A stretch of 62,517 nt of DNA, taken from positions 1 to 62,517 of the forward strand of contig CAIQQJ010000138.1 in NCBI GenBank assembly GCA_903873905.1, read 5' to 3'. This document shows positions 18,721-21,134 of this stretch, one piece after another. Under the pieces are notes generated by a model. That model searched no databases. It saw nothing but the letters and a program-made list of their open reading frames with translations, and was not told the DNA's origin. Numbering within the stretch: the first letter of the stretch is position 1; each line of letters opens with the position of its first letter. The position numbers were made by a program, and so were the translations under genes. This DNA comes from an uncultured Flavobacteriales bacterium. GTDB taxonomy: Bacteria > Bacteroidota > Bacteroidia > Palsa-965.

Positions 18721-19197
18721 TTAAATTATTTTCTTGCGCAATTCAAGACCAACTTCCTTCGCAATTTTATCCGCGAGTTTATCGCCGCCATCTGTAAAAG
18801 CCCAAACAAAAAGTGTTTTGATTGGAAAATCTTTTTGAATGGTGTGAATCGCTTCAATCACCATTTTTTTGGCCAACCCTTTTTTCCTGTATTCCGGCAA
18901 AACCGATGCAGAGCACAAATACAATACATCAAATTGTGTTCCTTCTTTTGTTTCGTTAAACAAAGTTTGTTCTGAAATTTTTCCTGCAAGAAATTTTCCC
19001 ATCAATTCAAATGTGGTTGGAAAAACCAAAATCCAAATCGCTGGTCCATTCCCATTGTCATATTCCGACAAACAAGCAGGATGAATTTTCTGCAATCGCG
19101 CAATAACATCTTGATCAACTTGCAATTGTTCTGGATCATTCCGAGTGGAAAAAACCTCATCTATAAGTTCCATCATTCTCTCAAAATTCGATTTCAT
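18721..19197 (-). CDS. GNAT-family N-acetyltransferase
   Basis: The 158-residue protein has the GNAT fold signature: a beta-bulge strand (DVLYLCSASVLPEYRKKG) followed by the acetyl-CoA loop RKKGLAKKM at about 112-120. The C-terminus is strand-helix (TLFVWAFTDGGDKLADKIAKEVG). It should transfer an acetyl group to an unknown amine. It is separated from neighbours by repeat-rich gaps on both sides. Confidence 0.75.
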   Translation of the reverse strand: MKSNFERMMELIDEVFSTRNDPEQLQVDQDVIARLQKIHPACLSEYDNGNGPAIWILVFPTTFELMGKFLAGKISEQTLFNETKEGTQFDVLYLCSASVLPEYRKKGLAKKMVIEAIHTIQKDFPIKTLFVWAFTDGGDKLADKIAKEVGLELRKKII

Positions 19198-20231: not shown

Positions 20232-21134
20232 ATGGCAACGAAAAAAAAACCAACAACTGCAAAGCCTAAGAAAGCTGCAGCTAAGAAATCGACTCCAGCA
20301 AAAAAAGCTAAAGCGGTAAAAAAAGTAGCAACAAAAAAAGTTGTAGCTAAGAAAAAAGTTGTGGCGAAAAAAGCTGCACCAAAGAAAAAAGTAGCAGCGA
20401 AAAAAGCCGTTGTGAAGAAAGCTGCTCCGAAAAAGAAAGTTGCGGTAAAAAAAGCAATTGTTAAAAAGGCTACCGCAAAGAAAGCAGTGGTTAAAAAAGT
20501 TGTTGCCGTTAAAAAAGTTGCTGCTAAAAAGACCGTAGTTGAAAAAGTAATTGCTGTTGCAAAACCAAAAGTTGCTACCGTTGTTAAATCTATAGCTCCC
20601 ACAGTTGAAAAAACGAAAGTTGTTGAAGTCGCTCAACCTGTTGCGAAAGTTAGAGTTGAATCCAAGCCTTTATCCAGGAATCAGCAAAAAAAATCTTCTT
20701 TAAAGAAAAGAACTTCAGAAAGAGATTCTCTCATTGAAGATACTTATACCGCTAATCCTAAGGTTCCTAAGAACACAAAACCAGTCGATCATAAAGCTTT
20801 CAAACTAGCGAAAGCAATCGTAAAGGCTATTGAAGAAAAGAAAGGTGACAACATCGTTTGCATCGATCTTCGTAACATCGAAAATCGTGTTTGCGATTAT
20901 TTCATCATCTGTGATGGTAATTCAACCACACAAGTTGATGCAATCGGAGGATCCGTGGAGTTTTTGGTTAAAAAAGAATTGGGGGAACGTCCTTATCGTT
21001 CTGAAGGATATGAAAATAAAACATGGATTCTTATCGACTACGTCAATGTAATTGTTCACGTTTTTGATAAAGAAACACGCCATTTTTATAACCTGGAAAG
21101 CCTTTGGGCAGATGGGGAAAGAATTACGTTTTAA
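20232..21134 (+). CDS. rsfS: RsfS (Iojap) with a histone H1-like Lys/Ala-rich N-terminus
   Basis: Residues about 186-300 are a complete ribosomal silencing factor RsfS domain (AIEEKKGDNIVCIDLRNIE, CDYFIICDGNSTTQV, EGYENKTWILIDYVNVIVHVF). RsfS binds ribosomal protein uL14 and blocks 30S-50S joining when nutrients are short. Typical RsfS is 105-130 residues. Here residues 1-118 are a low-complexity chain of AAKK/VVKK/APKKK repeats like histone H1-like DNA-binding tails, then a polar linker (about 119-185). No Met lies between the parts, so a separate internal start is unlikely and the fusion looks real. Repeat drift could change the tail length. It precedes ftsH. Confidence 0.92.
   Translation: MATKKKPTTAKPKKAAAKKSTPAKKAKAVKKVATKKVVAKKKVVAKKAAPKKKVAAKKAVVKKAAPKKKVAVKKAIVKKATAKKAVVKKVVAVKKVAAKKTVVEKVIAVAKPKVATVVKSIAPTVEKTKVVEVAQPVAKVRVESKPLSRNQQKKSSLKKRTSERDSLIEDTYTANPKVPKNTKPVDHKAFKLAKAIVKAIEEKKGDNIVCIDLRNIENRVCDYFIICDGNSTTQVDAIGGSVEFLVKKELGERPYRSEGYENKTWILIDYVNVIVHVFDKETRHFYNLESLWADGERITF

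Follow-up and report, generated by a model that had tools for sequence, protein, structure and literature searches.

The ribosome silencing factor RsfS (iojap, YbeB) is found widely among bacteria, with a homologue in mitochondria, and tends to be seen as a minimal one-domain factor. In Staphylococcus aureus, residues E70, W77, D81 and Y98 of RsfS touch the ribosomal protein uL14 (PMC7125091, PMC9503621). The factor also adjoins H95 of 23S rRNA, where Q49, R53 and K56 were proposed as phosphate contacts (PMC7125091). Lysine-rich low-complexity regions, as described in one survey, occur on proteins of translation and on DNA proteins, bL21 being an example (PMC6821194). We analyzed a stretch of 62,517 nucleotides from an uncultured Flavobacteriales bacterium, here called the window, in which both elements meet in a single open reading frame.

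The tailed rsfS gene and its product

The open reading frame at 20232-21134 (+) encodes a single ATG-started protein of 300 amino acids consisting of a basic tail, a polar linker and an RsfS domain. The N-terminal tail (20232..20585, +; residues 1-118) is rich in lysine, alanine and valine (45 K, 29 A, 25 V, 1 E, 0 R, 0 D), has a net charge of +44 and is predicted to be disordered; its lysines recur with a period of 5-6 residues (z about +5 vs shuffles). The polar basic linker (20586..20786, +; residues 119-185) has a net charge of +9, and the domain part (20787..21131, +; residues 186-300), followed by the stop codon at 21132..21134 (+), one of -4. AlphaFold2 left residues 1-150 unstructured (pLDDT about 50), placed a weak helix at 151-171 and folded residues 187-300 well.

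By every criterion tested, namely profile, fold and uL14 contacts, the protein is an RsfS. Residues 195-292 matched model positions 2-98 of 98 in PF02410 with 113.9 bits (cut-off 21.6), and TIGR00090 scored 109.1 (cut-off 56.9). Domain pLDDT was mostly 80-94, and the best Foldseek matches were RsfS structures at E about 1e-9, including the 50S-bound 6sj6. The four uL14-contact residues of S. aureus are all kept, as E258, W265, D269 and Y286, and uL14 is encoded in the same genome; docking on uL14 and subunit anti-association are therefore likely retained.

The gene is located between a divergent upstream gene for a BirA-like biotin/lipoate protein ligase (PF03099; 19343..20143, -) and a downstream gene for the protease FtsH (PF00004, PF01434; 21324..23414, +). 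This order was kept in all 11 members of the lineage that carry rsfS and in most other Bacteroidia read, which indicates that the tailed gene is an ordinary orthologue, neither a paralogue nor a mobile gene. No second RsfS, tail-less or other, was found in the window's genome. A GNAT-like acetyltransferase with a weak Pfam match is encoded nearby at 18721-19197 (-); that it might modify the lysine tail is pure speculation.

An in-frame TAA immediately precedes the ATG of rsfS. In-frame GTG codons at positions 44, 61 and 86 could shorten the tail, but not remove it, and no in-frame ATG, GTG or TTG is present between codons 87 and 241. Hence, no usual start yields a tail-less RsfS, and a wrong or internal start was ruled out, in agreement with the first-pass annotation, which had seen no strong start separating the two parts. 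The same annotation had named a frameshift in other assemblies as evidence against a fusion; we looked for one and found none. The unbroken frame of tail and RsfS is present in an independent assembly (L012) and in ten further lineage genomes (G001-G011 except G010, in which no RsfS was found), so frameshift and assembly error were ruled out as well. The fusion of RsfS in one frame to a basic disordered tail is thus real and conserved as proposed.

The GC content of tail and domain is nearly equal (0.370 and 0.374) and synonymous codons are mixed, which rules out a base-composition artefact as the source of the tail. The nearest relative (L012/L003) is 92% identical over the RsfS domain; its 359-aa form exceeds the window protein in tail length and has a linker that can still be recognised, and both proteins share the block LSRNQ.KKSS.KK..SER..L near 147-185. 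Comparison of the two revealed pN/pS values of 0.45 for the tail, 0.43 for the linker and 0.07 for the domain; changes were most frequent at third codon positions. The alignment of the tail repeats is uncertain in this pair; hence cleaner pairs were added. In a pair from family f41 the tails were 91% identical at the amino-acid level with a pS of 0.49 and a ratio of 0.10, and four other informative pairs gave tail ratios of 0.31-0.55. All informative pairs tested thus lie at 0.10-0.55. The tail is therefore translated in frame and its amino-acid sequence is under constraint, less tightly than the domain.

Relatives of the tail were also sought by sequence search, which gave weak low-complexity matches only. 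The description of the tail as histone H1-like holds for its composition, but not for family membership: HC2 (PF07382) scored 18.7 bits against a gathering threshold of 40, and the Burkholderia histone H1-like family (NF038053) 19 bits against a curated cut-off of 80. With profile scores below threshold only, a true histone domain was ruled out.

Distribution of tails on RsfS and on other proteins

The order-level lineage of the window comprises one family with three genera, from which 12 genomes were sampled. An RsfS match was obtained in 11 of them, one per genome; the remaining genome is 62% complete. All 11 genes encode a basic N-terminal tail, with lengths from 37 to 247 residues. Named relatives outside the lineage, collected by domain similarity and mainly from Flavobacteriaceae, have no tail and measure about 120-130 aa, close to the 105-130 residues given earlier for RsfS alone. 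The sole tailed protein among the named relatives is that of L012, a member of the window's own lineage.

In a class-wide sample, basic N-terminal tails were found in seven other families of Bacteroidia (f11, f12, f14, f21, f30, f41 and f71), with strongly basic tails in 14 of 14 sampled genomes of f21 and likewise in 14 of 14 of f41. Basic C-terminal tails are present on RsfS in two families of Bacteroidia (f16, f55) and two of other classes of the phylum (f97, f101), so that twelve families carry a basic tail at one end or the other; the loci were partly chosen by long open frames, and these counts indicate presence, not frequency. In the comparison of RsfS across Bacteroidota that the first-pass annotation had proposed, the fusion is thus recurrent and not singular. 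In family f12, one of two genera is tailed, and the loci L199 and L215 vs L120-L122, L193 and L221 offer a natural comparison of gain and loss. In family f71, one RsfS tail (L211) consists of near-exact repeats, EKKPTAKKAVKKVVSTEEV, with acidic and basic residues mixed; it is probably a recent tandem expansion.

An RsfS tree of 108 columns was poorly resolved; parsimony places at least 12 changes on it among three states (N-tail, C-tail and no tail). This count and the occurrence of tails at both termini speak for RsfS having acquired tails repeatedly within the phylum. A single origin by descent is unlikely for the same two reasons, although the supported branches alone force no more than one origin. 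The recurrence suggests that such tails help in parking RsfS on RNA or another polyanion.

Furthermore, lysine/alanine-rich (KA) tails occur on other proteins of the window's genome, which were found by DNA pattern, so that the list is possibly incomplete. Of two adjacent genes at C40:20500-24000 (L176), one encodes a stand-alone Hc2-like KA protein of 176 aa whose C-terminus is acidic, the other a DksA/TraR zinc-finger protein that begins with a KA tail of about 95 residues; a DksA-type factor and RsfS thus bear the same kind of tail in this genome. Ribosomal protein Thx has about 32 KA-rich residues as a C-terminal tail (C122:7500-10000, L182), a SWIB-domain protein a KA N-tail (C59, L180) and topoisomerase I a KA C-tail (C115, L178). 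A CheB-CheR hybrid protein at C169:34000-37000 (L179) starts with a short head, KKVVKKKVVKKK. Since several unrelated proteins carry KA tails, the tail is a portable polycation, attached in this lineage to nucleic-acid- and ribosome-related proteins.

Possible roles of the tail

The reading that we favor, tentatively, is that of a normal RsfS which has gained an electrostatic tether raising its affinity for 50S rRNA and polysomes. As in other bacteria, the RsfS domain would dock on uL14, block joining of the 50S and 30S subunits and aid late 50S assembly. Beside the docking site, the phosphate surface of 23S rRNA would be bound by the lysine tail, which would also contact nearby ribosomes or mRNA. 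Such a sequence-independent tether would make RsfS locally more concentrated and keep it longer on 50S particles; positive charge and disorder would matter, tail length and exact sequence little.

Several observations are consistent with this tether. With one RsfS per genome, housekeeping must fall to the tailed form. The tail codons are constrained while tails span 37 to 247 aa within the lineage, which points to a charge that is kept and a sequence that is free. Tails at either end in twelve families, with at least 12 state changes on the tree, are what an electrostatic module would show if its position did not matter. The KA tail of Thx in the same genome was counted in favor of a tether to RNA or the ribosome. 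The tails on the DNA-binding topoisomerase I, SWIB and Hc2-like proteins were counted against an RNA-specific one, as a tail that is also found on DNA-binding proteins is not indicative of RNA over DNA.

The window protein has D236, G240 and E243 at the sites of S. aureus Q49, R53 and K56, so the tail could supply the missing rRNA contact. This compensation is not supported. Acidic residues at these sites are also common among tail-less RsfS proteins of Bacteroidota, and although the raw difference is significant, it does not hold in a phylogenetic pair test, in which just two supported independent pairs were available and neither shows the association.

Polyphosphate (polyP) is plausibly as natural a target for the tail as rRNA or DNA. 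The tail may act as a sensor to which polyP accumulating in starvation binds, so that RsfS is concentrated, stored or regulated and silencing is coupled to phosphate or energy stress, which we consider unlikely, yet worth weighing ahead of the remaining alternatives. The genome encodes a polyphosphate kinase (PF02503), and RsfS acts during starvation (PMC9503621). PolyP is bound by lysine-rich disordered regions of Escherichia coli YihI and RNase R; the same study found seven polyP binders, each tied to the biogenesis of ribosomes or to translation (PMC12345225). The H1-like tail of AlgP consists of KPAA repeats; the protein joins polyP granules in starvation, and granule spacing depends on the tail (PMC9239181). 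A PASK motif, defined as a 20-aa window with at least 75% D/E/S/K (PMC12345225), is absent from the window protein, the best 20-residue stretch reaching 60%; lysine-rich regions without the motif bind polyP too. Any tail of this kind, however, is expected to bind polyP, and a positive result in vitro would therefore not prove a function. A bolder form of this idea, which we regard as improbable, is that Bacteroidota repeatedly made RsfS into a polyanion-responsive switch, in which the H1-like tail would sort RsfS, together with the 50S subunits bound to it, into a polyP- or nucleoid-associated starvation store and thereby couple hibernation to cell organisation.

The tail might also be a habit of the lineage, KA-rich low complexity expanding on nucleic-acid-related proteins and being tolerated there as a solubility or charge tag at most. 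Like tails on several unrelated proteins, the wide range of tail lengths within one order and the split between the two genera of f12 fit this view. The constraint on tail codons argues against it, as does the retention of a strongly basic tail throughout the window's lineage and in every sampled genome of f21 and f41; we judge a tail with no dedicated role to be unlikely.

Doubtful, in our opinion, is a tether to the nucleoid, by which the tail, like histone H1 or Hc2, would bind DNA without specificity and keep RsfS, and pre-50S particles assembling near the rRNA genes, at the nucleoid. The composition resembles that of HC2 and the Burkholderia H1-like proteins, and topoisomerase I, SWIB and the Hc2-like protein of the same genome bear similar tails; the profile matches are nevertheless far under their cut-offs, Thx as a ribosomal protein bears such a tail too, and for a factor that binds 50S the rRNA phosphate is closer.

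That the tail is an artefact, either lying outside the protein owing to a wrong start, frameshift or assembly error, or being clipped off to leave only the RsfS domain active, is highly improbable, given the frame shared by independent assemblies, the purifying selection spanning tail and linker and the lack of a usual start codon between the two parts, even though starts other than ATG, GTG or TTG are possible (for example ATT at codons 168 and 200) and the sequence is compatible with proteolysis, lysine-rich tails being readily clipped.

Comparison with known systems

A literature search, largely without subscription journals, found no paper describing a tailed RsfS, which is weak evidence of novelty. 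RsfS and lysine-rich tails on nucleic-acid and translation proteins are known; what appears to be new is the tail on RsfS. A strong polycation repeatedly placed at either end and kept by selection would mean that electrostatic tethering tunes silencing factors and that rRNA, DNA or polyphosphate may determine where in the cell they reside. As tailed and tail-less lineages are now listed, the question of the tail can be tested in cultured tail-bearing Bacteroidota.

The window protein has the domain, fold and uL14-contact residues of RsfS from S. aureus (6sj6) and E. coli (7bl2), and its gene has FtsH and BirA neighbours as in most Bacteroidia. Solved bacterial RsfS chains, however, are mostly about 105-139 aa long and are without its 188-residue basic N-terminal region. 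MALSU1, the mitochondrial RsfS homologue, is likewise extended at the N-terminus, its domain starting near residue 102 of 234 in chain 5ool_u. This extension includes the mitochondrial targeting sequence and is not known to be a KA repeat tail.

The tail itself belongs to the same general class as the lysine-rich low-complexity regions surveyed previously; in the passages of that survey consulted, RsfS did not come up (PMC6821194). Hc2/HC2 (PF07382) and the Burkholderia histone H1-like protein (NF038053) are alike in composition and lysine repeats, whereas in the window protein such a sequence is only the tail of a ribosome factor. A long disordered H1-like lysine/alanine repeat on an unrelated domain is also known from AlgP and PhaF of Pseudomonas. 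Their KPAA tetrads are C-terminal and not combined with a ribosome factor, whereas the tail of the window RsfS is N-terminal and has a period of 5-6 with valine.
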